Translations under genes and position numbers: made by a program
NCBI GenBank assembly: GCA_024638815.1
Contig: JAHEJM010000002.1
Location: 1-64,000 of the forward strand
DNA: 64,000 bases
Direction: 5' to 3'
Source: Acidimicrobiales bacterium
GTDB taxonomy: Bacteria; Actinomycetota; Acidimicrobiia; Acidimicrobiales; SZUA-35
Part shown: positions 5,292 through 34,698 of the stretch, in pieces
How positions within the stretch are numbered: position 1 is the stretch's first letter
Layout: each line of letters opens with the position of its first letter
The notes under the pieces: model-generated
What the model was told of the DNA's origin: nothing
What the model saw: only the letters and a program-made list of their open reading frames with translations
Databases searched by the model: none

Positions 5292-5460
5292 GCTCGCATT
5301 CGTCTGAGCTCCACGCTCGGCGGTTTCTGGCGACGATTTCAGCGGGTTGCGTTCGTCATGCATCGTGGCCTCGACGTTGCCGGCGAATCAGGGTCGAGTT
5401 CGGCCCGAATCGGCCGTTCTCCGGCGTGGGCCCGGGGTGGCCCCGGCTACGATCGGCACC

Positions 5461-6570: not shown

Positions 6571-6576
6571 TTCCGG

Positions 6577-13547: not shown

Positions 13548-14417
13548 GTGAGTGATCTGAACTCGTCGTCCCCCTTTCCCTTCGACCCGTCGTTGGATGG
13601 TGACGGATTTTCGAGCGACGGCGGGTCGGAGGTCCGATCCCGTTCCGGTGACGGTGAGGGCCGGCAGGCTGACGACAACGTTGAGCAGGCCCGCCGACTG
13701 GTGGCCGCCGGCCGCAGGATCGTCGTGCTGACCGGTGCGGGCATCTCCACCGACTCCCGGATTCCCGATTTCCGGGGCCCTCAGGGGATCTGGACGAAGA
13801 ATCCGGGGGCCGAGAAGGCGGCCACCATCCACAACTACGTGGCCAACGCTGAGATCCGGCGGGCAGCCTGGCTGACCAGACTGGACAGCCCGATGTGGGC
13901 GGCCGAACCCAATCCCGGGCACCGGGTCCTGCTGGAGTTGGAGAAGCGGGGAACGCTCCACATGCTCATCACCCAGAACGTCGACGGTCTGCATCAGCTG
14001 GCCGGTACCAGTCCTGACAAGGTGGTCGAGGTCCATGGAACGGCTCGGGAGGCAACCTGTCTCAGCTGCGAATATCGTGCTCCCATGCAGGATGTTCTGG
14101 ATCGGGTTCGGCGTGGAGAGGAAGATCCAGACTGTCCCATCTGCGGCGGCATCCTGAAGTCGGCCACTGTCAGCTTTGGTCAGAACCTGAGGGTGGAGGA
14201 CGTCGAACGAGCCACGGCAGCGGCCGAGGAATGCGATGTGTTGCTGGCCGTCGGCTCGACGCTGTCGGTCTATCCCATTGCCGGCGTGGTACCGGTGGCC
14301 AAGCAGGCCGGGGCGTCCATCGTCATCGTCAACGGTACCCCGACCGAGTTGGACTATCTGGCCGACGTCGTCGTTCGGGGCTCCATCAGTGACGTGCTGC
14401 CCCGAATCATGTCCTGA
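13548..14417 (+). CDS. Sir2-family NAD-dependent protein deacylase
   Basis: 289 residues. After a disordered N-terminus (about 1-45) comes a full sirtuin domain: GAGISTDSRIPDFR (63-76) for NAD binding, TQNVDGLH (142-149), the catalytic His163 in EVHG, and a structural zinc site from two pairs, C171/C174 and C196/C199. It removes acyl groups from lysines using NAD, producing nicotinamide and O-acyl-ADP-ribose. GTG start preceded by TAGGGT and GAAGGG at 6 nt. Substrates are unknown; acetyl-CoA synthetase is a typical sirtuin target in bacteria. Confidence 0.95.
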   Translation: MSDLNSSSPFPFDPSLDGDGFSSDGGSEVRSRSGDGEGRQADDNVEQARRLVAAGRRIVVLTGAGISTDSRIPDFRGPQGIWTKNPGAEKAATIHNYVANAEIRRAAWLTRLDSPMWAAEPNPGHRVLLELEKRGTLHMLITQNVDGLHQLAGTSPDKVVEVHGTAREATCLSCEYRAPMQDVLDRVRRGEEDPDCPICGGILKSATVSFGQNLRVEDVERATAAAEECDVLLAVGSTLSVYPIAGVVPVAKQAGASIVIVNGTPTELDYLADVVVRGSISDVLPRIMS

Positions 14418-14467
14418 CCCGGCAGCGGCGGCCCCCACCGCAGGAGGGCAGCCGGTACCGTAGTGGT

Positions 14468-15637
14468 ATGGCGTCGTTCCAGGATTTGTTGGCCACGACC
14501 AAGGCCTCCATTACCGAGGTTGATCCGGCTCGGGCCGAGGCTGCGCTGGCCGAGGGCTGCACCCTTCTCGATGTTCGTGAACCCGATGAGGTGGCTCAGG
14601 GAGCCATCGATGGGTCGATACATGTGGTTCGGGGAAACCTGGAGAGCCAGATCGAGGCTCGGGTTCCCGACAAATCGACACCGCTGGTGGTCATGTGCGC
14701 CGGCGGGGCCCGTTCGGCCTTCGCCACTCGAACCCTGGAAGAGCTGGGCTACATCACCGTCGCCTCCATGGACGGCGGATTCAACCGGTGGAAGGACGAA
14801 GGGCGCCCGTGGCTGGTGCCCACCATGCTCAGCGCCGAGCAGCGCACCCGCTACAGCCGCCACCTGTTGCTGCCTGAGGTCGGTGAGGACGGCCAACGGC
14901 GACTGCTGGAGTCTCGGGTGTTGTTGCTGGGAGCGGGTGGGCTGGGCTCCCCGGCCGCCCTCTACCTGGCCGCCGCCGGGGTGGGGACCCTCGGCATCGT
15001 CGACATGGACGAGGTCGACGCCTCCAATCTGCAGCGACAGATCCTGCACAACGGAGACCGGGTGGGTGAGCGAAAGGTCGACTCGGCCAGGAAGACGCTG
15101 AACGCCCTCAATCCCGATGTCGAGGTCGTCACCGTCGATGCCCGCCTCGGTGCCGGCAATGTGCTCGACATCCTCGACGGCTTCGATGTGGTGATCGACG
15201 GAGCGGACAATTTCCCCAGCCGCTATCTGTTGAACGATGCTTCGGTCAAGCTTGGTATTCCCATTGTCCACGGCTCGATTTTCCGGTTCGAAGGCCAGGT
15301 CACGGTGTTCGACCCCCGTAGCGGTCCCACCTATCGCGATCTGTTGCCCGAGCCGCCGCCCCCCGAACTCGCTCCCAGCTGCGCCGAGGCCGGGGTCGTC
15401 GGGGTGCTACCCGGCATCATCGGCTCGATCCAGGCTCTGGAGGCGATCAAGCTCATCCTCGGTCTGGGCGATTCGCTTCGAGGTCGGCTGCTGATGTTCG
15501 ATGCCCTGGAGGCGAGCTTTCGGGAGTTCCGGCTCGAGGTCGATCCCGACAATCCTGTGACCTGGGACAATCGAGATCGAATCGAGCTTGCCGAACTGGA
15601 CGATCAGTGCCGACCTCGGCTGTCGACCGACGCCTGA
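14468..15637 (+). CDS. Rhodanese-MoeB/ThiF fusion (E1-like adenylyltransferase with N-terminal rhodanese)
   Basis: 389 residues. Residues 1-115 are a rhodanese domain with the active-site loop CAGGARS (Cys77). Residues about 120-370 are an E1-like adenylyltransferase: RYSRHLLLPEVG, GAGGLGSP (155-162) for ATP, RQILH with the Arg finger, DGADNF, and SCAEAGVVGVLPG with the likely acceptor cysteine. Such enzymes adenylate the C-terminal Gly-Gly of a ubiquitin-like sulfur carrier (MoaD/ThiS/CysO type) and, with a rhodanese, load sulfur onto it. The usual MoeZ order is adenylyltransferase then rhodanese; here it is reversed. Leaderless-type start: TACCGT ends 6 nt before the ATG. No carrier protein gene is nearby. 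Confidence 0.92.
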   Translation: MASFQDLLATTKASITEVDPARAEAALAEGCTLLDVREPDEVAQGAIDGSIHVVRGNLESQIEARVPDKSTPLVVMCAGGARSAFATRTLEELGYITVASMDGGFNRWKDEGRPWLVPTMLSAEQRTRYSRHLLLPEVGEDGQRRLLESRVLLLGAGGLGSPAALYLAAAGVGTLGIVDMDEVDASNLQRQILHNGDRVGERKVDSARKTLNALNPDVEVVTVDARLGAGNVLDILDGFDVVIDGADNFPSRYLLNDASVKLGIPIVHGSIFRFEGQVTVFDPRSGPTYRDLLPEPPPPELAPSCAEAGVVGVLPGIIGSIQALEAIKLILGLGDSLRGRLLMFDALEASFREFRLEVDPDNPVTWDNRDRIELAELDDQCRPRLSTDA

Positions 15638-15682
15638 CCGTCAAGCTGTGACCACGATCACCACCCATCCTCGACAGGGGAC

Positions 15683-15709
15683 TCAAGTCCGGATGACCTA
15701 GGTCGATGT
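15683..15709 (+). promoter_or_regulatory. Candidate FliA/WhiG-type promoter
   Basis: TCAAGTCC, 11-nt spacer, GTCGATGT. Compared with the known sigma-28 consensus TAAAGTTT-N11-GCCGATAA it keeps the T-AAGT and CGAT cores with exact spacing. It lies about 50 nt upstream of the amidase/SpoIID-like pair. Sequence match only. Confidence 0.4.
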
Positions 15710-15760
15710 TCTCAGTGACGTATCCGTTGCCGAGAGCGTGTTCAAGACTGGGTCCCCCGA

Positions 15761-18607
15761 GTGATCAAATCGTCATTCCCTCTGTCCGCCGCACCTTCGA
15801 CGGAGTCCGCCGTGCCGTCCTCCTACTCCGGTCGCGCTTGCCGCCGCCGGTCCCTGTTCCTGCTGGTTCTGTTGGCCTTGCTGCTCCCGGTCGCAGCCTG
15901 TGGCGTGGTCCCCACCGGCGACGGGGCGCACGGGTGGACCGGCGATGATGGGTCGGGTCGTGCCGAGAAGGCCGATGGTGCCGAAGCCCCGCCCGGTTGG
16001 GGCTCGAACGTTGGGACGGCTCGGCCCGATCTGCAGCCGGGAACCTCGCTCGGAGGCGTGACCTTGACCGAGAGAAGGCAGGCTCGAGTGGGGGATGAGG
16101 TCGAGACCGTGGTCGGATTCGACGACCCACCGCCGGCCGTGGTCATCGTGGGCGAATCGCTGCACTCGCTGTCGCTGCGGTACCGGACCGATGGGGCCTG
16201 GACCGACTGGTCACCGACCCCGGATCTCGATCACGAGGCGCCCGACGGTATGGAACCGGGTTCCGAGGGCTGGCCGGCCGCGCCGCCGGCCTACGGCCCG
16301 GTCTGGCTCGGTGGCCGAACCGATGCCATTGCCTTCCGCAGCACCGATGGCGCACCGGTGGAGTTCGATGTGCTGTCGCTGGATCCTTCAGGCCGCCCGT
16401 CTCACGAAGCCACCGCCGGCTCCGTTGATCACGTGGCCGGCGCGGCCGGTCCCAGACCGGCCGGTCCCAGTGTCATCGGCCCGGTTCGCTCCCTGGGGGC
16501 GGCGGCCGTCACCGTTCCCGCCATCAATGAGCGAAGCCGATGGGCGGCCGCCGGTTGGGCCATCGACACCAATGGCTGTGGCCGGGGTCCGGGCCGAGCC
16601 GACAACATCGCCGCCGCCGTCATCCACCACACCGTGAACGGCAACAGCTACCGGCAGGATCAGGTCGATGATCTACTGCGATCCATCTACTACACCCACG
16701 TCGTGGTCAACGGCTGGTGCGATGTGGGCTACAACTTCGTCGTCGATCGATTCGGCGGCATCTGGGAGGCTCGCACCGGTAGCGCCAATGCCGCCATCAT
16801 CGGTGGCCACGCAAAGGGATTCAACACCACCACCGTCGGGGTGGCCCTGCTGGGCCAGCACCAGTCAGGGGTATCGCCGGCCAGCGCCAGCCCGTCCACT
16901 GCCACCGCCCAGGCGGTCCAGAACCTGTTGCACTGGCGGTTGGGTCAGTACGGAGTCGATCCGGCCGGCATGACCTGGCTCCGCAACTACGCTTCGTCCC
17001 CCCCGCTGAAGCTCAAGGGTGAGAGCTGGCACTACGTACCGACCGTTCTCGGCCACCGGGACCTCGGTCTGACCAGCTGCCCCGGCAACCTCGGATACTC
17101 GCTGGTTCGTACCACGCCCTCGACCCTGGTGGCCCGACGGGATCTCAGCCTTCCCTATCGATTCGAGCAGTGGACCGAGCGCAACCACGGTCCCGGGCTG
17201 CTGGTTGCCGACACCGGGGGTGGTCTTCGCCCTGCCGGTTCCGCTCCACAACCCACCGGGGCCGGCACCGGGGTGGTGGCCCCCGGCACGGTGGTCGCGG
17301 TCGACGGCGATCACACCGGTGGCTACCAGTTGACCTCGACCGGTGAGCTGATTCCGTTCGGCCAGGCGCCCAGTGCCGTTCCGGCCGGGAACTGGGCGGG
17401 GAGCGGTACCGCTCCGGTGGACATCGAGGTAGGGGGCGGCGGAGGATGGGTGATCAACGAACGCGGTGTGATCGCCTCATTCGGTGCCGCTGCGGCCGTT
17501 GGCCCGGTCCCGGTGGAGGCACCGGTGGCAGCCATGGCCCTCGACGACGCCGGTTCGGGCTATGTGGTCGATACCACCGGCCGGCTCCATCCGGTCGGTT
17601 CGACGGCCGGAGTCGAGGTACCGGCGCTTGATCAACCCCTTCCGGCCGGTGTCCGGGCGGTGGATCTGGCCGTCACCGGTTTCAGCGCCGACAGTGTCTC
17701 CACCGGACCATCGCCGAACCGGCCCCGAGGGTGGGTCCTCGACTCTGCCGGCACGGTGCGAGGATTCGGTGGCGCCCCGACCGTGGCCGTCAACGGCTCG
17801 GTGAGGCCGATTGCGGTGGTCGTGGCCCGAGGTGAACCGGGAGGCTGGATGGTTGACGCCACCGGTCAGGTGTGGCCCTTCGCCGGCGCCCGACTGATCC
17901 GGCCCGTCTCCACCGACGTCACCCGGGCCAATGTGGTCGACGCCACCCAGCTGGGTCTCGTGGCATCCACCGATTTCCTGGGCGGACCCGACGCCCGGTA
18001 TCTCACCGCCCTGTATCGACTGTTCAACGCCAGGGAAGCCACCGATGCCGAGATCAGCCGGGGTGTGGCCCAACTGGAGGACGGTGAACGCCGTTCGGTC
18101 ATCACCGACCGATTGGCTCACTCCCCGCGCTGGGCCGGCATCAGCATCGACGCCATGTATCGGGATGTGCTGGGCCGGAATCCCGACCAGGCCGGTCGCC
18201 GCTACTGGCTCGATCAACTCGCCAATGGTATGCGCTACGAGGACCTCGGTGTCTACTTCTATGGTTCGACCGAATACGCCGAGCGGGCGGGCGGCGATCG
18301 GGAGTACGTGGCCACCCTGTACCGGGTCCTTCTTGGACGCGAGGGTGAACCCGCCGGCCTCGACTACTGGACGGCCCGGCTGGTCGAGCCCGGGGTGGGC
18401 CCGCCGACGGTGGCTCACAGCTTCTACCTCTCGATCGAGTCCCGCCGGGATCGGGTCGCCGACCTGTACCGAAGGATCCTGGGCCGGACACCCAGCGCCG
18501 GGGAGCGGGATTACTGGGCCGAGCTATTGCTTGACATCGATGACGTCGAGTTGGCGGCCGAGCTGGCGGCAAGCGCTGAATATTACCGGAAAGTGGTCGA
18601 AGGATAG
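15761..18607 (+). CDS. Lipoprotein N-acetylmuramoyl-L-alanine amidase with propeller-like and DUF4214 regions
   Basis: 948 residues. A hydrophobic signal ends in a lipobox (LPVAAC, Cys47), so it is probably lipid-anchored outside the membrane. After a variable region (about 50-265) comes an amidase_2/PGRP domain: AAVIHHTVNG (about 286-295), NFVVDRFGGIWEAR, and GHRDLGLTSCPG (about 431-442), giving His/His/Cys zinc ligands. Residues about 475-715 hold repeats of the GWVxDxxGxVxxFG type, a beta-propeller-like region. The last about 200 residues contain DUF4214 repeats (YRDVLGRNPDQAGRRYWLDQL, then YRVLLGREGEPAGLDYW). It should cut the bond between N-acetylmuramate and L-alanine in peptidoglycan. 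GTG start at 15761; a second GTG at 15812 would give a tidier signal. The next gene starts 3 nt later. Confidence 0.88.
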   Translation: MIKSSFPLSAAPSTESAVPSSYSGRACRRRSLFLLVLLALLLPVAACGVVPTGDGAHGWTGDDGSGRAEKADGAEAPPGWGSNVGTARPDLQPGTSLGGVTLTERRQARVGDEVETVVGFDDPPPAVVIVGESLHSLSLRYRTDGAWTDWSPTPDLDHEAPDGMEPGSEGWPAAPPAYGPVWLGGRTDAIAFRSTDGAPVEFDVLSLDPSGRPSHEATAGSVDHVAGAAGPRPAGPSVIGPVRSLGAAAVTVPAINERSRWAAAGWAIDTNGCGRGPGRADNIAAAVIHHTVNGNSYRQDQVDDLLRSIYYTHVVVNGWCDVGYNFVVDRFGGIWEARTGSANAAIIGGHAKGFNTTTVGVALLGQHQSGVSPASASPSTATAQAVQNLLHWRLGQYGVDPAGMTWLRNYASSPPLKLKGESWHYVPTVLGHRDLGLTSCPGNLGYSLVRTTPSTLVARRDLSLPYRFEQWTERNHGPGLLVADTGGGLRPAGSAPQPTGAGTGVVAPGTVVAVDGDHTGGYQLTSTGELIPFGQAPSAVPAGNWAGSGTAPVDIEVGGGGGWVINERGVIASFGAAAAVGPVPVEAPVAAMALDDAGSGYVVDTTGRLHPVGSTAGVEVPALDQPLPAGVRAVDLAVTGFSADSVSTGPSPNRPRGWVLDSAGTVRGFGGAPTVAVNGSVRPIAVVVARGEPGGWMVDATGQVWPFAGARLIRPVSTDVTRANVVDATQLGLVASTDFLGGPDARYLTALYRLFNAREATDAEISRGVAQLEDGERRSVITDRLAHSPRWAGISIDAMYRDVLGRNPDQAGRRYWLDQLANGMRYEDLGVYFYGSTEYAERAGGDREYVATLYRVLLGREGEPAGLDYWTARLVEPGVGPPTVAHSFYLSIESRRDRVADLYRRILGRTPSAGERDYWAELLLDIDDVELAAELAASAEYYRKVVEG

Positions 18608-18610
18608 GTC

Positions 18611-20524
18611 ATGAGAAAAGCGGTTGTCGCCGTCGGCGCCCTTGTCCTGTCGATTGCCCTCACCGTCGTGGCCGTAGTGCCCGCCGCCGTTCCGGCCGCG
18701 GCCCACGACGAGCCTCACATCGTCATCACCGGCGGTGGTTGGGGCCATGGCCGGGGCATGGGTCAGTACGGTGCGCTCGGCTACGCCCGCGACCTCGGTT
18801 GGTCGTCGCGGCGGATTCTCGATCATTTCTACCGGGGCACCACCCACGGGCCGGTCCCCTCCTCCCTGTCGTTCGATGCCGACAAGATGCGGGTCGATCT
18901 CCGCTACCTGTCGAGCCGGTCCACCACGGTGGCGCTGGCCCAGGGTTCACTGCTGTTGACCGACGACTCGGGCACGGGTCTGGTCAACATCACCGACGGT
19001 GCCGTGCGGTTGACCGCCAACGGCTCCGGCTTCCGGTTGGAGACGGCGACGGGATGCGGCGGCCCGTGGACCGATCGCCAGGTGCTCGGGCGGAGCAAGA
19101 TTCGTGTCGTGGCCCACCAACCGACGGGATCAAACCCAACCGGCAGCGATGGCCTGCTCAAGGTCTGTGGTCCCCAGTATTTGGTGTGGTACGAGGGCGA
19201 GATCTGGGCCGTCACCAACAGCGGCGGCCGTCAGCGCACCATCAACGTCGTCTCGGTCGAGCAGTACCTGCGAGGGGTGGTGCCCAACGAGAGCCCGGCC
19301 AGTTGGCCGGCGGCGGCACTGGAGGCCCAAGCCGTGGCCGCCCGATCCTATGTGCTGGCCGGGGACACCCGCTGGCGGCCCTATGCCGACACCTGTGACA
19401 GCGTCTGGTGCCAGGTCTACGACGGTCGCTACACCACCCGGGGCGGTCGCTGGCGGGCCTCCACCGACCCTCGAACCGATGACGCCATCGTCGCCACCGC
19501 CGGACAGGTGCGGTTGACCTCGTCGGGGGCGGTGGCTCGAACCGAGTTCTCCTCGAGCACCGGCGGTTTCACCGCCGGTGGTGACTTCCCGGCCGTGGCC
19601 GACCTCGGCGACTCGGTGTCGGCCAACCCCAACCATCGGTGGGAGAGTCATATCTCGATCGCCGTGCTGGAGTCCCGGTATCGACTGGGTGACTTCGTGG
19701 ATCTGGTGGTCACCGACCGCAACGGCCACGGACCGTGGGGGGGCAGGGTCGGACGGATAGAGATCCGCTTCCGCAACGGCACCCGAACCATGTCGGGCAA
19801 TGACTTCCGGCGAGCGTTCGGCTTGAAATCCGACCTGTTCACGGTCAGCGCCATTCACCGCAACGCCGACGGCTCACCCGACACCGGAACCGACGACGAT
19901 CGCGACTTCCAGGCGGCCACCGTCGATCTGCTGTACCGGCGTCTGGCCGGCCGGGCCCCGACGTCGGGCGAACTGGGAACCTGGACCGACGCTCTGGTCG
20001 CTCGAGGCGCCGAAGCCAAGCGGGAGCTGGCCGGTCGACTCGTCCACAGCGAGCCCTTCGCCGGTCGCCTGATCGACGATCTCTACCGCCGGGCCCTCAA
20101 TCGGCGCTCCGATTCGCCCGGTCGAAGCTACTGGCTGAACCAGATGAACAACAGTGCACTGACCTATCAGCAGATGGGGGCGCTGTTCTACGGTTCCGAC
20201 GAGTACTACCAGCGGGCGGGCAACAACAACCGGGCGTTCGTCACCTCGTTGTACGAGAACATCCTGGGCCGCCGGCCCGACGGCGGTGGACTCGACTATT
20301 GGACCGGGCTGATGGACTCGGGTCGGGTCGGTCAGGTCGATGCGGCCCGGCTGTTCTACGAGTCGGTGGAATCGCGACGAACCCGGGCCCGATTGCTGTA
20401 TCGCCAGGTCACCGCGGGCGAGTTGGACTCGGCATCGACCGGCGACGGGGCCGACTATCTGATCTCCCGGTCGGACCTCGACCTCGCAGTGGAGTACGCC
20501 ATGATGCTGGTCCCACAATCGTGA
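18611..20524 (+). CDS. SpoIID/LytB-like secreted wall enzyme with DUF4214 repeats
   Basis: 637 residues with a classical signal peptide (cleavage after about residue 31, AAA-HDE). The SpoIID domain covers about 35-400, with GGGWGHGRGMGQYGALGYA (41-59) and the core VSVEQYLRGVVPNESP (about 214-229) containing the catalytic-type Glu, followed by LEAQAVAARSY. SpoIID proteins are lytic transglycosylases that act on glycan strands whose stem peptides an amidase has removed; the amidase gene lies immediately upstream. From about 430 to the end are DUF4214 repeats (YRRALNRRSDSPGRSYWLNQM, YENILGRRPDGGGLDYW), the same type as in the amidase. The function of DUF4214 is not established; a wall or glycan anchoring role is inference. 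Confidence 0.9.
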   Translation: MRKAVVAVGALVLSIALTVVAVVPAAVPAAAHDEPHIVITGGGWGHGRGMGQYGALGYARDLGWSSRRILDHFYRGTTHGPVPSSLSFDADKMRVDLRYLSSRSTTVALAQGSLLLTDDSGTGLVNITDGAVRLTANGSGFRLETATGCGGPWTDRQVLGRSKIRVVAHQPTGSNPTGSDGLLKVCGPQYLVWYEGEIWAVTNSGGRQRTINVVSVEQYLRGVVPNESPASWPAAALEAQAVAARSYVLAGDTRWRPYADTCDSVWCQVYDGRYTTRGGRWRASTDPRTDDAIVATAGQVRLTSSGAVARTEFSSSTGGFTAGGDFPAVADLGDSVSANPNHRWESHISIAVLESRYRLGDFVDLVVTDRNGHGPWGGRVGRIEIRFRNGTRTMSGNDFRRAFGLKSDLFTVSAIHRNADGSPDTGTDDDRDFQAATVDLLYRRLAGRAPTSGELGTWTDALVARGAEAKRELAGRLVHSEPFAGRLIDDLYRRALNRRSDSPGRSYWLNQMNNSALTYQQMGALFYGSDEYYQRAGNNNRAFVTSLYENILGRRPDGGGLDYWTGLMDSGRVGQVDAARLFYESVESRRTRARLLYRQVTAGELDSASTGDGADYLISRSDLDLAVEYAMMLVPQS

Positions 20525-20732: not shown

Positions 20733-21716
20733 ATGCCTGTTGATTTCGACGCCCCCGTTTTCGTGGCCGGTCATCGCGGCCTGGTGGGCTCGGCCATCTG
20801 TCGCCGTCTCGGGTCCGAGGGGTTCGGCAACGTGCTGACCGAGGACCGTGACCGGCTCGACCTTCGGGATCAGGCTGCGGTCCGGCGCTGGTTCGAGCAG
20901 CACGAACCGTCGCACGTCTACCTGGCGGCCGGCACGGTGGGCGGGATCCTGGCCAACTCCAGTCGTCAGGCCGAGTTCCTGTATGACAACATGATGATCC
21001 ACGCCAACGTCATCGAAGCCGCTCGGCGGACCGGGGTGACCAAGCTCCTGTACCTCGGCAGCGCCTGCGTGTACCCGCGGTTGAGTCCTCAGCCCATTCC
21101 GGAGTCGGCCTTACTGACCGGACCCTTGGAGCCGACCAACGAGGGCTACAGCCTGGCCAAGATCGCCGGTGTCCGGCTGTGCGACTTCTATCGTGAGCAA
21201 TACGGGTGCAACTTCGTCACCGCCATGCCCACAAACCTCTACGGCCCGGGTGACAACTTCGACCTTCGGTCCAGCCATGTGTTGCCGGCGCTGATGCGTA
21301 AGTTCCACGAGGCCAAGCTGGAGGGTCGAACCGAGGTCGAGGTGTGGGGCACGGGACTGGCTCGGCGGGAGTTCATGTATGTCGACGATCTGGCCGATTG
21401 TTGCCTGTTTCTCATGGACAACTACGACGAGCCCGGCCATATCAACGTCGGAACCGGCTCCGATGTCTCCATTGCCGAGTTGGCCTCCATGATGGCCGAA
21501 GTCGTGCATCCCGATGCCGCCGTCGTGTACGACACGTCGAAACCCGACGGGATGCCCCGACGGTCCCTCGATGTGTCGCGGTTGCACGCACTGGGTTGGC
21601 GTGCCGGCACCGATCTCGATACCGGCCTGACCCGGACCTATTCATGGTTCCTGGACCGGGTGGCCCACGCCGCCGACCCATCGGCCGGCACGCCCCGGGT
21701 TCGGGCGCTGTCGTGA
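20733..21716 (+). CDS. fcl: GDP-L-fucose synthase (GDP-4-keto-6-deoxymannose epimerase/reductase)
   Basis: 327 residues, short-chain dehydrogenase fold. The N-terminal nucleotide loop reads VAGHRGLVGSA (11-21). Catalytic residues: the Ser in GSACVYP (Ser110) and Tyr139/Lys143 in GYSLAK. TNLYGPGDNFD and REFMYVDDLAD are family blocks. It converts GDP-4-keto-6-deoxy-mannose to GDP-L-fucose with NADPH. The dehydratase Gmd that makes the substrate is not in the window. GAAGGA precedes the ATG. First gene of a translationally coupled glycan operon; its TGA overlaps the next GTG. Confidence 0.93.
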   Translation: MPVDFDAPVFVAGHRGLVGSAICRRLGSEGFGNVLTEDRDRLDLRDQAAVRRWFEQHEPSHVYLAAGTVGGILANSSRQAEFLYDNMMIHANVIEAARRTGVTKLLYLGSACVYPRLSPQPIPESALLTGPLEPTNEGYSLAKIAGVRLCDFYREQYGCNFVTAMPTNLYGPGDNFDLRSSHVLPALMRKFHEAKLEGRTEVEVWGTGLARREFMYVDDLADCCLFLMDNYDEPGHINVGTGSDVSIAELASMMAEVVHPDAAVVYDTSKPDGMPRRSLDVSRLHALGWRAGTDLDTGLTRTYSWFLDRVAHAADPSAGTPRVRALS

Positions 21717-23014
21717 CCGCACCTGCACCGATCGAAGCGAACGCCGTGGCCCTTGTGCCACCCCGCTACGGCCCGGGGGTGATCGGGGGAGCCGAGGCGG
21801 TGCTGAGCGAGATGGCCCACGGGCTACGGGCCCGCGGCGTCGCAGTGGAGATCCTCACGACCTGTGCTCGCGACCATTTCACCTGGGCCAACGAGTTCCC
21901 GGTGGCGGTGACGGAGTTGGCCGACGGGGTGAGACTGCGCCGCTTCGCCACCGAGGTCGACGCCGATACGTCGGTGCGCGATCGTCTGGGCCATCGCATT
22001 CTGGCCGGTGATGATCTGTCCATCCAGGACCAGCAGCTCTGGGTCAACTCCAGCCTGCGATGTAGCGGCTTGTGGCATCACGTCTTCGATCACGGCCACC
22101 GGTATCGGGCCCTGATCTTCGCCCCCTACATGTTCTGGACCACCTACGCCGTGTCCCAGATCCATACTCGCCGTTCCATTCTCATGCCCTGTCTTCACAA
22201 CGAACCGCCGGCCTACCTCGACATCTACCGGTCGATGATGGAGGCGGCCGGTGGCGTGTGGTTCCTGACCGACCCGGAACAGGAACTGGCAAACCGCCTG
22301 TACCGACTGTCCGATCGACAGCGGGTGGTGGGAGCGGCAGTGGAAGCTCCGACCGAGTATCGGCCCGATCGGTTCCGGGAGCGATTCGGTATCACCGGTC
22401 CCTACGCCTACTACGCCGGGCGGCGGGAGTGGGGTAAGGGATGGGACGACCTGGTCTCGGCATTCGCCGCCTATCGGCGCCGGCGGCCCGGATCGGACCC
22501 GGCCGACCACCGGCTCCCCGGGGTGCTCACCCTGGTGACCTCCGGGGTCGGCGCCGTGGATGACGACCACGGCATGGGTTCCGGTCTGGTCGACGTCGGC
22601 CTCATCTCCGACGACGACCGCAACGATGCGATGGCCGGAGCCGCCGTCTACATCCAACCCAGCGCCATGGAATCGTTCTCGCGGACGGTGCTCGAGGCCT
22701 TCGCCGCCGGCACGCCGGTGGTGGCCAACGGGCACAGCGATGTCGTCCGCTGGCACATCGAGCGCACGGGGGCCGGGCTGACCTACCGCAACCAGGCCGA
22801 GCTGATGGCCTGCCTCGATTTTGTCACCGATGAGCCGGAGGCGGCGCGGAACCTGGCCCGTGACGGGAGGGACTACGTGATCGAACACTACGGAATCGAT
22901 GCCGTGGTCGATGCCGTGGCCGAGACCGTGGAGGCGTGGATGCCGCCCGCTGTCCGTGAGCGCCGGGCCGACCCACGGCGGGTTTCCACTGGGGCCGGGG
23001 GAGGGCGAACATGA
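21713..23014 (+). CDS. GT4-family glycosyltransferase
   Basis: 433 residues, GT-B fold. The N-terminus ALVPPRYGPGVIGGAEAVL is the donor/acceptor Gly loop of GT4 enzymes; the C-terminal half shows YYAGRREWGKGWDDLV and the ESFSRTVLEAFAAGTPVVA motif with the E-x7-E pair that binds the sugar nucleotide. It presumably adds one sugar to a lipid-linked glycan on the cytoplasmic side; sugar unknown. GTG start overlaps the fcl stop (GTGA), and its own stop overlaps the next ATG (ATGA). Upstream open frame inside fcl is not coding. Confidence 0.88.
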   Translation: MTAPAPIEANAVALVPPRYGPGVIGGAEAVLSEMAHGLRARGVAVEILTTCARDHFTWANEFPVAVTELADGVRLRRFATEVDADTSVRDRLGHRILAGDDLSIQDQQLWVNSSLRCSGLWHHVFDHGHRYRALIFAPYMFWTTYAVSQIHTRRSILMPCLHNEPPAYLDIYRSMMEAAGGVWFLTDPEQELANRLYRLSDRQRVVGAAVEAPTEYRPDRFRERFGITGPYAYYAGRREWGKGWDDLVSAFAAYRRRRPGSDPADHRLPGVLTLVTSGVGAVDDDHGMGSGLVDVGLISDDDRNDAMAGAAVYIQPSAMESFSRTVLEAFAAGTPVVANGHSDVVRWHIERTGAGLTYRNQAELMACLDFVTDEPEAARNLARDGRDYVIEHYGIDAVVDAVAETVEAWMPPAVRERRADPRRVSTGAGGGRT

Positions 23015-24579
23015 CCTGGCTCATGGTGTCACCCTGGGCACCGTACCGCGATGGCATCGCAAGCTACGCTCAGCAGGAGGTCCGCCATCTGCGGGCCGCC
23101 GGCCACGACGTCACCGTGCTGTCGCCCCTACCGTCGGCGGCTCATCACCACCTCCGTCTGGGTGGGGCACCCGGCGCCTTTCGGCTGGCCCGTCACGGTG
23201 CCGGCTATGAGCGGGTGATCGTGCAGTTCGGACCGGAGTTGTTGTTCGGACACTGTCGAACCGGGGCCGAGCGGGTGGCGGTGTGGGCCGCCCTGGCCGC
23301 CCTGGCCCGTACCACGGATCTCGAGTTGCGAATACATGAGATCGAATACGAGCGGCTGGAGCGGTCCAGGGCGGAAGCAACCATGGCCAGAATCGTTCTC
23401 GGTTCGGCCCATGCCGTCACCGTGCACACCGAGGCCGAGCACAGGGCTCTCCTCGAGCGCCTCGGCCCGGCGGCGAGACGAATCTCGGTGGTGGCCCACG
23501 GTCGTCACTTCAGCTCCCAGGTCGATCTCTCACCGATGGAGGCCAAGGCGGAACTCGGTCTCGAGCCCGATCGTCTGACGTTGCTGTGCATCGGATTCCT
23601 TCAGCATCACAAGGGTTTCGATCTTGCCATCGAGGCACTGGCCGTGGCCAACCTCGACGATGCCGATCTACACATCGTGGGATCGGGGCGGATCGACCAT
23701 CCCGAGATCGCTCAGTACGTCGCCCAGCTCCGGGCCATGGCCGACCGCTCGGCCGGCGTCACCCTGCACGAGGGCTATGTGTCGGATGAGTTGTTCGACC
23801 GGTGGTTGCTGGCGGCCGATGTGGTGGTGTTGCCCTATCGGGAGATCTGGTCATCGGGAGTGGTGGAGCGGGCTCGGCTGTTCGACAAGCCCATCATCGC
23901 CTCCGATCTTCCCCAGCTCCGGGATCAGCTATCGGCCGATTCCATGGTCTGTGGCGGAGTCGGTGAGCTGGCCGACGCCATGGCCGCCGTCGCCCGTCGG
24001 CTTGCCGGTGGCGTCGGCCCGGTCTCCACCACCACCGGCGACGGGCTCGAGACGGCGTCCGGCGCGGCAACGGGCTCACGGTCCTCAGGTGATGCCACGG
24101 GGTCGACCACGTGGGACGTTGACCGGCCCAAGCCCGACCGATCGTCCCTGCAACGTCAGATCGAGGCCAGGGCCGGTCGCCAACGGGCCGTAACCGGCGC
24201 CGCCATAACCGGCCCCCTGCCGCCCCGACTGGGCTCGGCGACTCGGGTCGGAGTGGCCGACGGCGGCTCGGTCGGGTCGGCGATGGCCATGACCGAGCCG
24301 ACCCGACCGGCGGCCCGGCATCTCGAGGACCTGGGTTCGTACCAACGGCCGCCGGCGACCTCGCTCCGACCCCTGGTCGGACCGCTCAAGCAGTCGGTCG
24401 AGACAGTGACCAACTGGCAGATCGATCCCCTGACCCGTCGGATCGAGGATCTACACCAGGCCACGGTGGACGCCGTGTTGGAGTTGGAGGCCCGAATGCA
24501 GCGGTTGGAAGCGGTTCATCGACAAGAGGCGGAAGGAGGACAGGATCAGCCATGCGAGTACTCGTCACCGGTGGCCTAG
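23011..24579 (+). CDS. GT4-family glycosyltransferase with long C-terminal extension
   Basis: 522 residues. Residues 1-330 are a GT-B/GT4 enzyme: SPWAPYRDGIASYAQQEVRHL at the N-terminus, then GFLQHHKGFDLAIEAL, LHIVGSG, LHEGYVSDELFDRWLLAADVVVLPYREIWSSGVVERA. The usual E-x7-E is less clear than in its neighbour. Residues about 330-470 are a low-complexity Thr/Gly/Arg/Pro-rich linker; the last about 45 residues form a predicted coiled coil (DPLTRRIEDLHQATVDAVLE). The extension resembles a tether for assembling glycosyltransferases. Overlaps its upstream neighbour by 4 nt and rmlB by 28 nt, so translation is coupled. Confidence 0.85.
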   Translation: MTWLMVSPWAPYRDGIASYAQQEVRHLRAAGHDVTVLSPLPSAAHHHLRLGGAPGAFRLARHGAGYERVIVQFGPELLFGHCRTGAERVAVWAALAALARTTDLELRIHEIEYERLERSRAEATMARIVLGSAHAVTVHTEAEHRALLERLGPAARRISVVAHGRHFSSQVDLSPMEAKAELGLEPDRLTLLCIGFLQHHKGFDLAIEALAVANLDDADLHIVGSGRIDHPEIAQYVAQLRAMADRSAGVTLHEGYVSDELFDRWLLAADVVVLPYREIWSSGVVERARLFDKPIIASDLPQLRDQLSADSMVCGGVGELADAMAAVARRLAGGVGPVSTTTGDGLETASGAATGSRSSGDATGSTTWDVDRPKPDRSSLQRQIEARAGRQRAVTGAAITGPLPPRLGSATRVGVADGGSVGSAMAMTEPTRPAARHLEDLGSYQRPPATSLRPLVGPLKQSVETVTNWQIDPLTRRIEDLHQATVDAVLELEARMQRLEAVHRQEAEGGQDQPCEYSSPVA

Positions 24580-25595
24580 GATTCGTCGGCTCGGCGTTCA
24601 TCCGACATCTGATATCGGAGACCAACCACGAGGTGGTCAACCTGGATCGTATCGCGTATGCCGCCACCGAGGGATCACTGGCGCCGGTCGCCGATTCGAC
24701 CCGGTACCGATTCCTCCAGTGCGACCTGGCCGACGAGGGCGCCACGGTGCGGGCGGTCACCGAGTGCCGGCCCGATGCCATCGTCCATCTGGCGGCCGAG
24801 ACCCACGTGGATCGTTCCATCGACGGACCTCGCGTCTTCGTCGACTCCAACGTGATCGGGACCTACAACCTGTTGCAGGCGGCCCGGTTGGTTCCCGGCC
24901 TGCGCCGTCTGGTCCACGTCTCGACCGATGAGGTGTTCGGGTCGTTGTCCGACGATGACTCGATGCTCGACGAGGGGTCGAATTATGACCCGCGATCACC
25001 GTATTCGGCCACCAAGGCCGCCTCCGATCATCTGGTTCGAGCCTGGTACGAGACCTACGGCCTGCCGGTGGTCGTGACCAACTGTTCGAACAACTACGGA
25101 CCGTTCCAGTTCCCGGAGAAGATGATCCCGATCATGATCATCAACGCCTGGCAGGGCCAACCACTGCCGGTATACGGCGACGGAGGAAATGTCCGGGACT
25201 GGCTCCATGTGGAGGATCACGCCCGTGCCCTGCTGTCGGCGATGGAACGGGGAGCCGACGGGGAGACCTATGTCATCGGTGGCCGCAGCCAGCGGACCAA
25301 TCTCGAGGTGGTGGAAGACATCTGCAATCTGGTGAACGCGCAGGTCGACGATGCGCTCGACCGGACCCAGCTCATTCGCTTCGTCCCCGACCGCCCGGGG
25401 CACAATCGTCGCTACGCCATCGACTCCTCCCGGACCGAGCGGGAACTGGGTTGGTCACCCCGCTACGGCTTCGAGGATGGTCTGGCCGCCACTGTGGGCT
25501 GGTACCTGGCCAACGGTTGGTGGTGGCGGCCCCTGATGCGTCGCTCCGATGTCGGTGTGCGACTCGGTCTGCAGGGTGTGGGTGGGGCGCGGTGA
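24552..25595 (+). CDS. rmlB: dTDP-glucose 4,6-dehydratase
   Basis: 347 residues, extended SDR. TGGLGFVGSAF (6-16) binds NAD; HLAAETHVDRSI is the RmlB signature; STDEVFG gives the catalytic Thr125/Asp126/Glu127; YSATK gives Tyr151/Lys155; SNNYGPFQFPEKMIP follows. It makes dTDP-4-keto-6-deoxyglucose for rhamnose and related sugars. The partner genes rmlA, rmlC and rmlD are not in the window. The product tail (about 325-347) is longer and more basic than usual. Start overlaps the preceding gene; stop overlaps the next GTG. Confidence 0.94.
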   Translation: MRVLVTGGLGFVGSAFIRHLISETNHEVVNLDRIAYAATEGSLAPVADSTRYRFLQCDLADEGATVRAVTECRPDAIVHLAAETHVDRSIDGPRVFVDSNVIGTYNLLQAARLVPGLRRLVHVSTDEVFGSLSDDDSMLDEGSNYDPRSPYSATKAASDHLVRAWYETYGLPVVVTNCSNNYGPFQFPEKMIPIMIINAWQGQPLPVYGDGGNVRDWLHVEDHARALLSAMERGADGETYVIGGRSQRTNLEVVEDICNLVNAQVDDALDRTQLIRFVPDRPGHNRRYAIDSSRTERELGWSPRYGFEDGLAATVGWYLANGWWWRPLMRRSDVGVRLGLQGVGGAR

Positions 25596-26041
25596 AGCCG
25601 GCCGTCGCCGGGCAAGGGGGCGAGGAGCGACTTGCCGAGCGCGACCGGGAGTCGCTGCAGGAGGCCCTGGCCCGGGCCCGGGAGGAGAACCTGAACCTCC
25701 TCGACGAGGTCATAGGGGCCCGAGCGGCGGCGGCCCAGGCTCGCAAAGATCACGACGCCACCTTCCACCTGCTCGATGTCACCTCAGGACAGCTCAACGA
25801 GCTGAAGGCGGCGCTCGGCTACCGGCCCGAGGATGAGGTGGTCGACATTGTCCAAGCCATCGAAACCTCACCCGCCGGCCTTCGCCCCACCGATCGGAGC
25901 GCCATCGCCGGCGAACTCGACCGTGTGATCGATGGTGCGATCGACGGAGAGGTACAGGTCGATGCCGAGGCGACCGGTCGACTGGATCGTCGGCTGTCGG
26001 CGGTGGCCCGTCGGCTGGAACGGGGCCTCGGGCGACGGTGA
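25592..26041 (+). CDS. Coiled-coil protein of the glycan operon, unknown
   Basis: 149 residues starting at a GTG that overlaps the rmlB TGA; the longer open frame upstream is inside rmlB. Residues about 10-75 are a heptad-rich coiled coil (ERLAERDRESLQEALARARE, then LLDEVIGARAAAAQARKDHD), followed by LNELKAALGYRPEDEVVDIV and a second helical region. No signal peptide or membrane segment. It overlaps the following GT2 gene by GTGA. A similarly placed coiled-coil gene precedes the second GT2 gene at 34934, suggesting a partner role. Confidence 0.65.
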   Translation: MKPAVAGQGGEERLAERDRESLQEALARAREENLNLLDEVIGARAAAAQARKDHDATFHLLDVTSGQLNELKAALGYRPEDEVVDIVQAIETSPAGLRPTDRSAIAGELDRVIDGAIDGEVQVDAEATGRLDRRLSAVARRLERGLGRR

Positions 26042-27666
26042 CCGTCAACGCCACCGCCGGCCGACATCAGCCGAGCTCGGCGTCGGACCCGCTCCCGGCC
26101 CGACGGTGGCTGATCGTGGTGGAGGCCACGAACGAGGATCCGGTTCCGGTCGTCGAGAGCACGGTGTCGCATGCCATCGAGGCCGCCACCTGGTGTCAGG
26201 GGCAACGCCGGTACGATCCACCGGTGGGCCAAGTCGAGTCGGGGCCGGGGCCATCGGACCTGCTCATCGACATGATCACCGCCGGTCCGGGGCCGGTGAC
26301 GCTGCCCCCGACTGGTTCCGACGACGATGCGGTGGTGCTGATCGGCTCCGGCTGCCGGCTGGAGGAGAGGGCGCTGGCCGCCATGGTGAACCTGATCATC
26401 GGCAATCCTCGGATCGATCTGATCTATGGTGACTCGATCCTGGAATCGAGCGACGGGACCCGCCCCGAGCTGCGGCCCGGCTACTCACCAGATCGGCTTG
26501 CCGGCCAGTCCTATCTCGGAGGGGTGATGGCGGTCCGTCGCCGGCTGTGGGACGTCGTTGTCGATCGGCGCTCGGCCGAACCCGTGGCGCTGACCGGCCA
26601 TCGACGAGTGATGGCCTTGAGCCGGGCGGCCAGGGCCGTGGCCCACATTCCCCGACCCCTGTACCGGCATTCGGCGACCGGGACCGAACCACCTCGCCGG
26701 CCCCAGCCGGTCACCGCCGACGAATCCTCGGTGTCGGTCATCATCCCCACCAATGGCACCCGACGTCGTGTCCGAGGCCGCGACGTCTGCCTGGTCCATC
26801 AGGCGGTGGCATCCATCATCGACCGTCGAGGTCGAGCAGGGGGCTCGAGTCCGGCACCGGAACTCGTCGTCGTCACCACCCCGGGTATCGGCGACACTGT
26901 GGTGGCCGAGCTGCGGCAGCTGGTCGCGGCCCACGGCGACGATCGGATCGCCAACCTCCGCATTGTGCATGATGATCGGCCGTTCAACTTTTCCAATGCC
27001 TGCAACCGGGGCGCGGTCATGGCCGGCGGCGATGTTCTGGTCTTCCTCAACGACGACACCGAGATCATCGCCGCCGACTGGCTCCACCGGCTGGTCGCCT
27101 GGACCTCCGACCCGACCATCGGTGCCGTCGGAGCCCGCCTCTACTACGAGGACGGGACCATCCAGCACAACGGGCTGTGGACTCGGGGTGGTCATCCCGC
27201 CCACCGCTACGAGGGCCGGGAGGCCGACGATCGGGGTCATCTCGGCTCCCTCACCGTGGCCCAGAACTGCTTGGCCGTCACCGGGGCCTGTCTGGCCGTC
27301 CGGGCCGAGCTGTTCCACCAGGTCGGAGGCTTCTCCCCGGTCTTTCCCTCCAGCTACAACGACGTGGACCTGTGCCTGAAGCTCCTCGACCACGGGTATC
27401 GAACGGTCATCGATCCTGCGATCGAGCTGTTTCACTTCGAAGCCAGTTCCCGGGATCCGTCCATCAGCGGTGAGGAAATGGCCGTGTTGCACGACCGGTG
27501 GCGCAGTGTGCTCAACCACGACCCGTTCGACAACCCGAACTTCGATGCTCCCGGCAGCGAGGAGTTGCCGCTGCCAATCGTGGATGACCTCGCGGTCTTG
27601 CATGACCACGAGGTGGAGCGCCCTCCGGTCCGGGTCTGGCCGTTGGAGTCGCTGGTCATGGCCTGA
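26038..27666 (+). CDS. GT2-family glycosyltransferase (rhamnosyltransferase-like), N-terminal copy reduced
   Basis: 542 residues. The C-terminal half (about 230-500) is a complete GT-A domain: SVSVIIPTNG, HDDRPFNFSNACNRGA, VFLNDDTEII (metal-binding DDT-type motif), GAVGARLYYEDGTIQHNG, QNCLAVTGACLAVR, YNDVDLCLKL. The N-terminal part (about 25-220) aligns with the first GT2 domain of the gene at 35245 but has lost its nucleotide-binding start and the DDD-like motif, keeping only YGDSILESS ... GYSPDRL ... YLGGVMAVRR. So one active site is expected. Related two-domain enzymes extend rhamnan or galactan chains. Start overlaps the coiled-coil gene (GTGA). Last gene of the operon. Confidence 0.88.
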   Translation: MTVNATAGRHQPSSASDPLPARRWLIVVEATNEDPVPVVESTVSHAIEAATWCQGQRRYDPPVGQVESGPGPSDLLIDMITAGPGPVTLPPTGSDDDAVVLIGSGCRLEERALAAMVNLIIGNPRIDLIYGDSILESSDGTRPELRPGYSPDRLAGQSYLGGVMAVRRRLWDVVVDRRSAEPVALTGHRRVMALSRAARAVAHIPRPLYRHSATGTEPPRRPQPVTADESSVSVIIPTNGTRRRVRGRDVCLVHQAVASIIDRRGRAGGSSPAPELVVVTTPGIGDTVVAELRQLVAAHGDDRIANLRIVHDDRPFNFSNACNRGAVMAGGDVLVFLNDDTEIIAADWLHRLVAWTSDPTIGAVGARLYYEDGTIQHNGLWTRGGHPAHRYEGREADDRGHLGSLTVAQNCLAVTGACLAVRAELFHQVGGFSPVFPSSYNDVDLCLKLLDHGYRTVIDPAIELFHFEASSRDPSISGEEMAVLHDRWRSVLNHDPFDNPNFDAPGSEELPLPIVDDLAVLHDHEVERPPVRVWPLESLVMA

Positions 27667-32183: not shown

Positions 32184-33167
32184 TCAGAGCTGCTCGGCGA
32201 ACGATCCCTCCAGCCGGGTGAAGACCCGAAGGCCGACGACGAGCGCCACCACCCCGACCGTCAACGACACTAGGAGGTTCTGGAGGTACCACTCGGTCGG
32301 TCGGATCAACAGATCGAACTGCTGCTGTTGTTCCGGAGGGAAGCCGGTCGGGTTGTAGAGCACCCGCTCGAAGGTGGTGACCACCGGAATGAGCGGGTTG
32401 AGCATGATCAAACGCTCCCACTGGGGTCCGAACCGGTCGATGACGTAGCTTGCGAGGAAGCTGTAGTTCCACACCACGGGGGTGAACCAGAACAGGGCGA
32501 GCAAAGCCAGCTCGAGGAAGTGCTCGACGTCTCGGAAGAACACGTTGAGGGCTGACAGCAATACACCGAAACCGACCGATAGGACGAGGGTCACGAACAC
32601 GGCGAACAGGGCCAGCCACATGTCCTTCCAGTCGGGAGCGTGCCAGTAGATGATCAGGGCCACGACGAGGATGATGACCCGGCTGGCGAAGGTGACCAGG
32701 TTGGAGGCCACGGCTGCCACCGGGAGGATCTCACGGGGAAACCAGATCTTTGTCACCACGGCCGAGTTGCCGACGATTGACGACGCTCCGGCGGTGACGC
32801 TGGTGGTGAAGAGCCCGAAAATGGCCATGCCCGAGAGCAATTTGAGCGGGAACATCGGGGTTCGTCCCGGCATGAAATAGGTGAATACCACGGTGTAGAT
32901 GAACATCTGCAACAAGGGATTGAGCAGGTTCCAGGCCACACCGAGCGCACTGTTCTTGTGTCGGGATTTGACCTCCCGCTTGGTCAGGTTCAGCAACAGA
33001 TCCCGATAGCGCCAGACGCGGACCATCTGGGAAAGGATTCCGGTGTCGTCGGGCAGGGTGCCGATGGGGCGAAGCCGGGATCGGTCTTCGTCGACCGCGG
33101 TGGCGGGGAAGTGGGACTCGGTCGATGTCGACGGTGATGGTGATGTCGGACGGGCGGTATCGGTCAT
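32184..33167 (-). CDS. ABC-2 type polysaccharide export permease (Wzm-like)
   Basis: 327 residues. A disordered N-terminus of about 45 residues precedes the ABC-2 permease domain: RYRDLLLNLTKREVKSRHKN, SALGVAWNLLNPLLQMFIYT, FTTSVTAGASSIVGN, then six predicted transmembrane helices, with the typical FFRDVEHFLELALLALFWFTP near the fourth and fifth. It pairs with the ATPase encoded at 33256 to flip lipid-linked glycans across the membrane. Same strand, 88-bp gap downstream of the ATPase gene. Confidence 0.92.
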   Translation of the reverse strand: MTDTARPTSPSPSTSTESHFPATAVDEDRSRLRPIGTLPDDTGILSQMVRVWRYRDLLLNLTKREVKSRHKNSALGVAWNLLNPLLQMFIYTVVFTYFMPGRTPMFPLKLLSGMAIFGLFTTSVTAGASSIVGNSAVVTKIWFPREILPVAAVASNLVTFASRVIILVVALIIYWHAPDWKDMWLALFAVFVTLVLSVGFGVLLSALNVFFRDVEHFLELALLALFWFTPVVWNYSFLASYVIDRFGPQWERLIMLNPLIPVVTTFERVLYNPTGFPPEQQQQFDLLIRPTEWYLQNLLVSLTVGVVALVVGLRVFTRLEGSFAEQL

Positions 33168-33255
33168 GGTTTGAGGCGCCTCCGTTGCCGGGACTCGGTG
33201 ATGGGTGGAGCCGAGCTTGAGTTCGTGCGATGGGACCGGGGCGGCCCACGGCTGG

Positions 33256-34698
33256 TCAGGGCACCGAGGTCGGCGCTCGTTCCCCTGCTTCTCGACGGTC
33301 GTCGGCTCGTCGTCGCGGCGTTGGTTTCGGCGTTACCAGCTCGGCGGTGACAGGGACGGCCAGCAACCCCAAACCCCGGCCTCCGGCTTCGACCGAGAAT
33401 CCGGCCAGGCCGGCTCGACGGGCGAACTGATGGCCACCATCGGGGGTCTCGGCCGTGATGTCGATCAGGTATTGGCCATCACGAAGGGGCAACGGCCCGA
33501 AGTGGAACGACGCTTCGTGTCGGCCTTCGGGAAGATCCAGCGAGCTGCCTCCTCCCAGCAGGCCTGACGTGGCCCGATTGATGAGGAGAAGTCCTTCCGG
33601 GGTTCGCAGGGTGATTCTGAGTCGAACCGGCACGGTGGCATCGTGGACCGAGATGGTGACGACGGCCGTCACCGGAGTGCCGGGCTTGACCACCAGGTCC
33701 TTGTTCGATGTTGCCCGGTGTCGGGGTGGAGTCGACGTCCCGGCCGCTTCGATGGCGTCGATCAGATGGGCCGATTCGATGACCACCGGGCTCTTGGCCG
33801 GCCGTGCGGCCCCCGGTGGTTTGTCGGCCAGGCGCTGTTGACGAGCGTTCAGCGCCTTTCGGTAGGCGACGATGGCATCGTCGGCCGGACCCAAATGGAT
33901 CAGCCGACCCTGGTCCAGCACGGCGGCCCGGGAACAGAGCTGGCGGACCGTGTCGGCACTGTGGCTGACGATGATCATGGTTCGACCCATGGATCGAAAC
34001 TTGTGCACCCGTTCCATGCACTTGTTGCGGAAGGTTTCGTCACCGACGGCCAACACCTCGTCGATGAGGAGTACGTCGGGTTCGAGATGGGTGGCGACCG
34101 AAAAACCGAGGCGGGCTCTCATTCCCGACGAATAGTGCTTCACCTGCACGTCGATGAACTGGTGGAGTTCGGCGAAGTCGACGATGTCATTGAATGCTGC
34201 CCTGACATAGTTCCGATCCAGCCCGAGAATCGAGCCGTTCAGGTAGATGTTCTCCCTGCCGGTGAGATCAGGATGGAACCCGGCGCCCAGTTCGAGAAGG
34301 GCGGCCAGTCGACCTCGTACCAGCACACGTCCCGCCGTGGGCCGCATGATGCCCGCCATCAGCTTGAGCAGGGTGCTCTTGCCCGATCCATTGTGGCCAA
34401 GCACGCCGAATGTCTCACCCTGGACGACATCGAAGCTGACCTGCTCGAGTGCGGTGAACTTGGAGTTCGATCCCCGGCTCGGGTGAAGCAGGCGTTCCTT
34501 GGCCGTCTTCGCTCCGCTGGCATCGAGACGAAAGATCTTGCTGAGCTCGATGACCGAGACCGCCACCGCCGAGTCCTCGACCGCACCGTTGCCCGTCTCC
34601 TCGGCCCGGCGGTCAGGGCCGGCACCCCGACCGAGAGGCGCGGCGGCAGGTCCGGGGGAACGATGCTCGGATGACGCGGCGGACGGCATTTCACTCAT
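33256..34698 (-). CDS. ABC polysaccharide export ATPase with C-terminal glycan-binding-like domain (Wzt-like)
   Basis: 480 residues. The nucleotide-binding domain (about 45-300) has Walker A GHNGSGKST, the signature YSSGMRARL, Walker B VLLIDEVLAVGDE and the switch His in IIVSHSA; the spacing LLELGAGFHPDLTGREN is typical of polysaccharide exporters. The C-terminal region (about 330-455) is a beta-rich domain like Wzt-C, which in known cases recognises the non-reducing end of the chain and so sets export specificity. GGGGAGA lies 6 nt before the ATG. Forms the exporter with the permease gene downstream. Confidence 0.92.
   Translation of the reverse strand: MSEMPSAASSEHRSPGPAAAPLGRGAGPDRRAEETGNGAVEDSAVAVSVIELSKIFRLDASGAKTAKERLLHPSRGSNSKFTALEQVSFDVVQGETFGVLGHNGSGKSTLLKLMAGIMRPTAGRVLVRGRLAALLELGAGFHPDLTGRENIYLNGSILGLDRNYVRAAFNDIVDFAELHQFIDVQVKHYSSGMRARLGFSVATHLEPDVLLIDEVLAVGDETFRNKCMERVHKFRSMGRTMIIVSHSADTVRQLCSRAAVLDQGRLIHLGPADDAIVAYRKALNARQQRLADKPPGAARPAKSPVVIESAHLIDAIEAAGTSTPPRHRATSNKDLVVKPGTPVTAVVTISVHDATVPVRLRITLRTPEGLLLINRATSGLLGGGSSLDLPEGRHEASFHFGPLPLRDGQYLIDITAETPDGGHQFARRAGLAGFSVEAGGRGLGLLAVPVTAELVTPKPTPRRRADDRREAGERAPTSVP

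Follow-up and report, generated by a model that had tools for sequence, protein, structure and literature searches.

A draft genome of 4.7 Mb from the class Acidimicrobiia contains two adjacent genes for an amidase and a SpoIID-type protein, both predicted to be exported and both ending in DUF4214 repeats. This arrangement raises the question of whether the two proteins form a dedicated wall-cutting unit and, if so, which process such a unit would serve. The locus was analysed within a stretch of 64,000 nucleotides (the window), and its features are collected in Table 1. The reading that we favour, and hold to be probable, is that the pair constitutes an operon-like wall-degrading unit, in which the amidase would act before a circularly permuted SpoIID and matched DUF4214 tails would hold the two together, much as in the LytC-LytB pair. 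The gene pair, its domains and catalytic residues, the permutation, the adjacency and fusions of the two genes, and the matching of their tails were all established computationally.

The amidase and the SpoIID-type protein

The amidase gene begins with a GTG codon and encodes 948 amino acids, of which residues 282-443 match the Amidase_2 profile PF01510 (47.2 bits against a cut-off of 26); the DUF4214 profile PF13946 matches in three stretches (87.6 bits against 23.2). PGRP and T7 lysozyme are the PDB relatives of the catalytic domain. His289, His432 and Cys440, which we take to form the Zn site, are unchanged, together with Tyr324, across an alignment of 18 amidase sequences, the roles of all four residues being presumed from those known in T7 lysozyme and PGRP. 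The propeller-like region described in a first-pass annotation of this DNA is borne out by an AlphaFold model of residues 465-948 (pLDDT 88), the propeller part of which finds generic propellers only in a Foldseek search. The same annotation had called the amidase a lipoprotein. A lipobox (VAAC, with Cys47) is present, but it is private to the source genome among the genomes compared, and the amidases of relatives carry a signal peptide or a membrane anchor and lack the lipobox Cys. Lipoprotein status is therefore not supported as a general feature of this amidase.

The SpoIID gene follows on the same (plus) strand after a gap of 3 bp and is present as a single copy in the source genome. It starts with ATG and encodes 637 amino acids with a signal peptide, a match to the SpoIID profile PF08486 (81.6 bits against a cut-off of 23) and two stretches of DUF4214 (81.2 bits against 23.2). 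The description of the locus as two adjacent exported proteins that both end in DUF4214 thus agrees with the coordinates, the domains and the spacing found here. The top Foldseek match of the predicted SpoIID model (pLDDT 87) is the Clostridioides difficile SpoIID structure 5i1t (E 6.8e-5). Glu227 is invariant among relatives and corresponds in the alignment to Glu101 of the C. difficile enzyme (5txu), a residue whose mutation abolishes activity (PMC6221140).

In solved members of the family the catalytic core is followed by a block with the motif GHGxGMxQYGA, and the window SpoIID deviates from this order. When compared with 4rwr by phmmer, residues 36-77 align with residues 275-315 of the chain and residues 207-411 with residues 59-268, and the segments are likewise swapped relative to 5i1t and 5txu. 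These alignments indicate that the SpoIID domain is circularly permuted with respect to the solved SpoIIDs. Because the definition of PF08486 covers the core only, and not the order of segments, the family name SpoIID is kept and the protein is regarded as belonging to a permuted subgroup. Local profiles placed the GHG block before the core in 156 proteins, after the core in 24, and in both positions in none. In samples that were not chosen by similarity to the window SpoIID, the ratio of permuted to canonical forms was 26:11 at the level of the class and 25:12 at the level of the phylum; judged by these profile counts, permuted SpoIID is widespread in Actinomycetota, and within the order of the source genome there are genomes (G116, G161) that carry both forms. 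Annotation by profile does not reveal the permutation, and no prior description of a circularly permuted SpoIID was found in the open-access literature.

A sigma-28-like promoter had also been proposed to precede the pair. The motif exists, and it resembles a site elsewhere in the same genome, CTCAAGCCC...GCCGAT (L103:8665, minus strand), which lies 36 bases before an flhB-like gene and is, by its sequence, likely to be a flagellar (sigma-28-type) promoter of this organism. With three mismatches allowed, one match was found against 0.38 expected; the relaxed motif matched eight times in the window, and none of 17 relatives checked had it upstream of the amidase, the one match among them falling inside a coding region. 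The motif is neither conserved nor more frequent than chance would give, and on these comparisons sigma-28 control of the pair is unlikely. A sigma-70-like promoter and a terminator were searched for, and none was found.

Table 1. Coordinates of features in the window (first thirteen rows) and in other loci (last three rows)
Feature	Coordinates	Strand	Basis and remarks
MoeZ-like ThiF-rhodanese gene	14468..15637	+	Pfam, synteny; 5′ of the pair in nearly all relatives whose sequence covers this position
Sigma-28-like motif CTCA-N16-GTCGAT, 5′ of the amidase	15682..15707	+	Motif search; probably chance
Predicted exported amidase: signal/lipobox, Amidase_2 (PGRP type), beta-propeller, three DUF4214	15761..18607	+	ORF, Pfam, PDB relatives, alignment
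Lipobox VAAC, Cys47 predicted lipidated	15890..15901	+	Sequence reading; Cys absent from relatives
Amidase_2 catalytic domain	16508..17146	+	Pfam, alignment; His289, Tyr324, His432, Cys440 invariant
Beta-propeller of the amidase	17153..17965	+	AlphaFold model m76c632339aaa, Foldseek
DUF4214 tail of the amidase, all-helical	17987..18604	+	Pfam, AlphaFold model, tail tree
Predicted exported SpoIID-type lytic transglycosylase, circularly permuted, DUF4214 tail	18611..20524	+	ORF, Pfam, alignments, model
GHGxGMxQYGA block	18710..18856	+	N-terminal here, C-terminal in solved SpoIIDs 4rwr, 5i1t, 5txu
SpoIID catalytic core	19223..19855	+	Alignments; Glu227, Cys262, Cys267 invariant
DUF4214 tail of SpoIID, predicted phycobilisome linker domain fold	19889..20500	+	Pfam, model, Foldseek
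Surface-polysaccharide genes: GDP-fucose synthase-like, three glycosyltransferases, GDP-mannose dehydratase-like	20733..27666	+	Pfam, synteny
Wzm/Wzt-type ABC polysaccharide exporter	32184..34698	-	Also beside permuted SpoIID in other families
DUF4214 proteins of the source genome	L081-L093		Own genome
Cellulosimicrobium cellulans amidase and SpoIID	L188:1-2508 and 4584-6746		
Amidase_2-permuted SpoIID fusions	L198:3756-6803, L199:179-3289, L248:3375-6884, L241:2961-6086, L253:2829-6104, L262:4940-8344		

Conservation of the pair and its surroundings

Related loci were recovered with an alignment as the query, a single-protein query having returned nothing. SpoIID is present in 36 of the 39 genomes of the family, which the SpoIID tree places beside Candidatus Microthrix. 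Of the 26 family genomes with upstream sequence (the window included), 21 have the amidase 5′ of SpoIID and in the same orientation, one of them with 4.1 kb between the two genes; in one further genome the sequence stops at the end of a contig. Five family genomes are without a neighbouring amidase. In four of these there is no close amidase copy genome-wide, an absence that is provisional since the genomes are drafts, and the fifth (G016) has an amidase copy at a contig edge and a tailless SpoIID. The four genomes nevertheless retain SpoIID-DUF4214, which makes a strict dependence of SpoIID on this amidase appear doubtful; they may use other amidases.

Outside the family, Amidase_2 adjoins permuted SpoIID in other Acidimicrobiia, in Cellulosimicrobium and Actinotalea, and in Rhodococcus and Gordonia, and the two domains are fused in one protein in Geodermatophilaceae, Terrabacter and Aeromicrobium. 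The fusions, which in Terrabacter come with FG-GAP repeats and are also found in one further relative, provide a link of the Rosetta-stone type. Conservation of the neighbourhood, on which the proposal of a dedicated pair had been made to depend, is therefore seen within the family, in other lineages and in fusions. Within the flanks examined, 114 of the 156 surveyed permuted SpoIIDs had no Amidase_2, and adjacency was compared for permuted and canonical SpoIIDs with the Amidase_2 profile only, which would miss an Amidase_3 neighbour of a canonical SpoIID. The SpoIIDs of three MAG contigs, two labelled Bifidobacterium breve (L227, L236) and one labelled Acidobacteria (L215), fall within the Ilumatobacteraceae branch, and these records thus look mislabelled or contaminated.

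Across the family, the MoeZ-like gene precedes the pair in nearly all genomes and polysaccharide genes follow it. The order of three genes at window positions 12574-15637, namely a gene without a Pfam match (12574-13191, minus strand), SIR2 and MoeZ, is shared by the family and the Microthrix-like sister lineage L160, in which a flippase-like gene stands between MoeZ and SpoIID (L160:6721-8500). Further downstream in the window, an open reading frame of 387 amino acids without a Pfam match (36813-37976) is flanked on either side by a glycosyltransferase gene; since it overlaps the preceding gene, its start or its reality is unsure.

Of the 26 family loci, 22 have glycosyltransferase, exporter or related genes within 5 kb of SpoIID; the same holds for 33 of the 96 other permuted loci and for 1 of the 24 canonical ones, the last two proportions differing with a Fisher p of 0.002 among loci that are mutually related and not independent. 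Among the permuted loci outside the family, such genes accompany 7 of the 8 DUF4214-tailed SpoIIDs but 26 of the 88 with no such tail (p 0.002), and 0 of the 10 LGFP-tailed ones. These counts speak for a reading in which the unit opens the wall for the assembly of surface polysaccharide or wall polymers. The context probes were mostly homologues of window genes, a choice by which the search favours relatives, and the loci are interrelated, so that the association with polysaccharide genes is a lead and not proof; moreover, clustering is a property of genes and not of function. On balance, wall opening for polysaccharide assembly is rather unlikely to be what the unit is for. The first-pass annotation had named an appendage, an exported matrix or division as the purpose of wall opening; the exported matrix receives circumstantial support from the polysaccharide-export neighbours, and an appendage or division found no support here.

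DUF4214 and the matching of tails

The source genome contains 34 matches to DUF4214 on about 15 proteins, and the domain is therefore not specific to the pair. Its other carriers include a YkuD transpeptidase, two M23 proteins (one of them a weak match), a polysaccharide deacetylase, proteins of unknown function, and DUF3048, DUF1501 and galactose-oxidase-like proteins. Its occurrence on the YkuD, M23 and deacetylase proteins fits the earlier view of DUF4214 as a module for targeting to the wall or surface, and in segmented filamentous bacteria DUF4214 is regarded as a likely surface-anchoring domain (PMC12780176). Both observations favour another account of the locus, namely that the two enzymes are autolysins of a general kind that serve no particular site, that DUF4214 is a generic wall anchor in this lineage, and that adjacency reflects shared expression. 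This account is possible, and we entertain it tentatively; the history of the tails argues against it.

Where SpoIID and amidase are neighbours and not fused, a DUF4214-tailed SpoIID is paired with a DUF4214-tailed amidase in 23 of 23 cases and an LGFP-tailed SpoIID with an LGFP-tailed amidase in five of six, and in one neighbour pair both proteins carry a propeller; tail types of the two enzymes thus change in concert in other lineages. In trees of the catalytic domains, AU tests rejected a common clade for the DUF4214-tailed SpoIIDs (p 0.0016) and likewise for the DUF4214-tailed amidases (p 0.021). The tree of the tails groups them by lineage and not by enzyme: the family tails of both enzymes are separated from the Cellulomonadaceae-type tails by a branch with 100% support, and one clade of all SpoIID tails was rejected (AU test, p 1.8e-7). 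The tree included five further DUF4214 copies from the source genome, and these lie apart from the tails of the pair, which are mutually nearest, on a weakly supported branch. In Cellulosimicrobium cellulans the DUF4214 tails of amidase and SpoIID are 86% identical over 213 residues, which suggests recent copying or conversion. By this phylogeny, at least two lineages have DUF4214 tails on amidase and SpoIID alike, and the paired tails of a given lineage are each other's closest relatives. In at least two lineages, on the simplest reading of the trees, the tail was copied from one partner enzyme to the other or conversion has kept the two tails similar; several losses or transfers may also have produced the pattern. 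Repeated acquisition of the same type of anchoring tail by both enzymes suggests action at one spot, and the sharing of DUF4214 that drew attention to the pair now looks selected. More generally, matched tails that are copied within lineages suggest a rule by which the accessory domains of wall enzymes should tell which of them work together. In L160, the SpoIID appears by eye to carry an N-terminal LysM repeat instead of DUF4214.

The DUF4214 part of the SpoIID model was matched by Foldseek to solved phycobilisome (PBS) linker domains with a probability of 1.00 and E values from 5e-3, superposing with an rmsd of about 2.3-3.5 over about 110-120 columns, and the profile of the linker domain (PF00427) matches the DUF4214 amidase of Actinotalea (E 5.2e-9). 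The predicted structure thus indicates that DUF4214 has the phycobilisome-linker fold, although here the domain is extracellular and phycobiliproteins are not expected. A domain of unknown function found on many surface proteins thereby gains a fold relative and a likely role. It is conceivable, if improbable, that DUF4214 is a protein-protein stacking module that assembles an extracellular multi-enzyme wall-remodelling complex beside sites of surface-polysaccharide export, in the manner of cohesin-dockerin pairs in the cellulosome, with the amidase, the permuted SpoIID, the L,D-transpeptidase, the M23 peptidases and the polysaccharide deacetylase as putative members.

Proposed action and comparison with known systems

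For the favoured operon-like unit, we infer two-step catalysis, co-localisation by the tails and the process served. Both proteins would be exported, and the amidase would free peptidoglycan of its stem peptides, leaving denuded glycan strands for the permuted SpoIID to cut; the matched DUF4214 tails would keep both enzymes at one wall site, where the product of the amidase reaches SpoIID. This order is carried over from characterised SpoIIDs, for which it is established and which degrade glycan strands once an amidase has acted or alongside it (PMC6635528, PMC6221140). The process most likely to be served is wall turnover or cell separation, followed by wall opening for surface-polysaccharide assembly. 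An alternative is suggested by B. subtilis LytB, which is listed as not hydrolysing peptidoglycan itself and as stimulating amidases (PMC10653849), so that the window SpoIID could, as proposed for LytB, be a non-catalytic stimulator of its amidase. The invariance of the catalytic Glu227 and of the conserved Cys pair argues against such a role, which we consider unlikely.

The first-pass annotation had drawn a parallel with engulfment in Bacillus, where SpoIID works with an amidase. The complementarity of amidase and SpoIID stands, and the better precedent is the vegetative LytB-LytC pair and not engulfment. Descent from the engulfment machinery of sporulation, or equivalence to it, would account for a SpoIID domain with an amidase partner; the amidase, however, is of the Amidase_2 type and not SpoIIP, and the pair adjoins MoeZ and polysaccharide genes, which leaves this reading highly improbable.

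LytC is an Amidase_3 enzyme, and the repeats of LytB and LytC are CWB2 repeats. LytB-LytC of Bacillus is the nearest known system and SpoIID-SpoIIP is less close. In B. subtilis, LytB-LytC (CwbA-CwlB) combines a SpoIID-family protein and an N-acetylmuramoyl-L-alanine amidase in one operon (PMC7176660), and the title of Kuroda 1992, as cited in PMC10653849, ascribes to LytB sequence homology to autolysin and to SpoIID. The window pair resembles this system in the adjacency of the SpoIID and amidase genes and in carrying the same accessory repeats on both proteins. It differs in having an Amidase_2/PGRP domain with a propeller, a permuted SpoIID and DUF4214 repeats, and SigD-type control is unsupported. 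Given the differences in amidase family, SpoIID order and repeats, we take the pair to work like LytB-LytC and do not assign it as a member of that system.

With SpoIID-SpoIIP the pair shares the conserved catalytic Glu and, presumably, the order in which an amidase acts first and SpoIID then acts on denuded strands; it differs in its amidase family (PF01510), its permuted domain, its targeting tails and its lack of a sporulation context. AmiA-SpoIID of Chlamydiales is a septal, non-sporulation example of SpoIID working with an amidase (PMC6635528); it is phylogenetically distant, and the part of that source considered here reports no matched tails or gene pairing. Among actinobacterial amidases with a PGRP domain, Amidase_2 and the invariant Zn-site residues are common features, to which the window amidase adds a propeller, DUF4214 and the linkage to SpoIID. 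Work on the succession of amidase and SpoIID has dealt with sporulating Firmicutes and with Chlamydiales; adjacency, fusion and matched tails now point to this partnership across Actinomycetota. To the first-pass annotation the analysis adds the permuted SpoIID, its partnership with Amidase_2 across Actinomycetota, and the matching of the tails.
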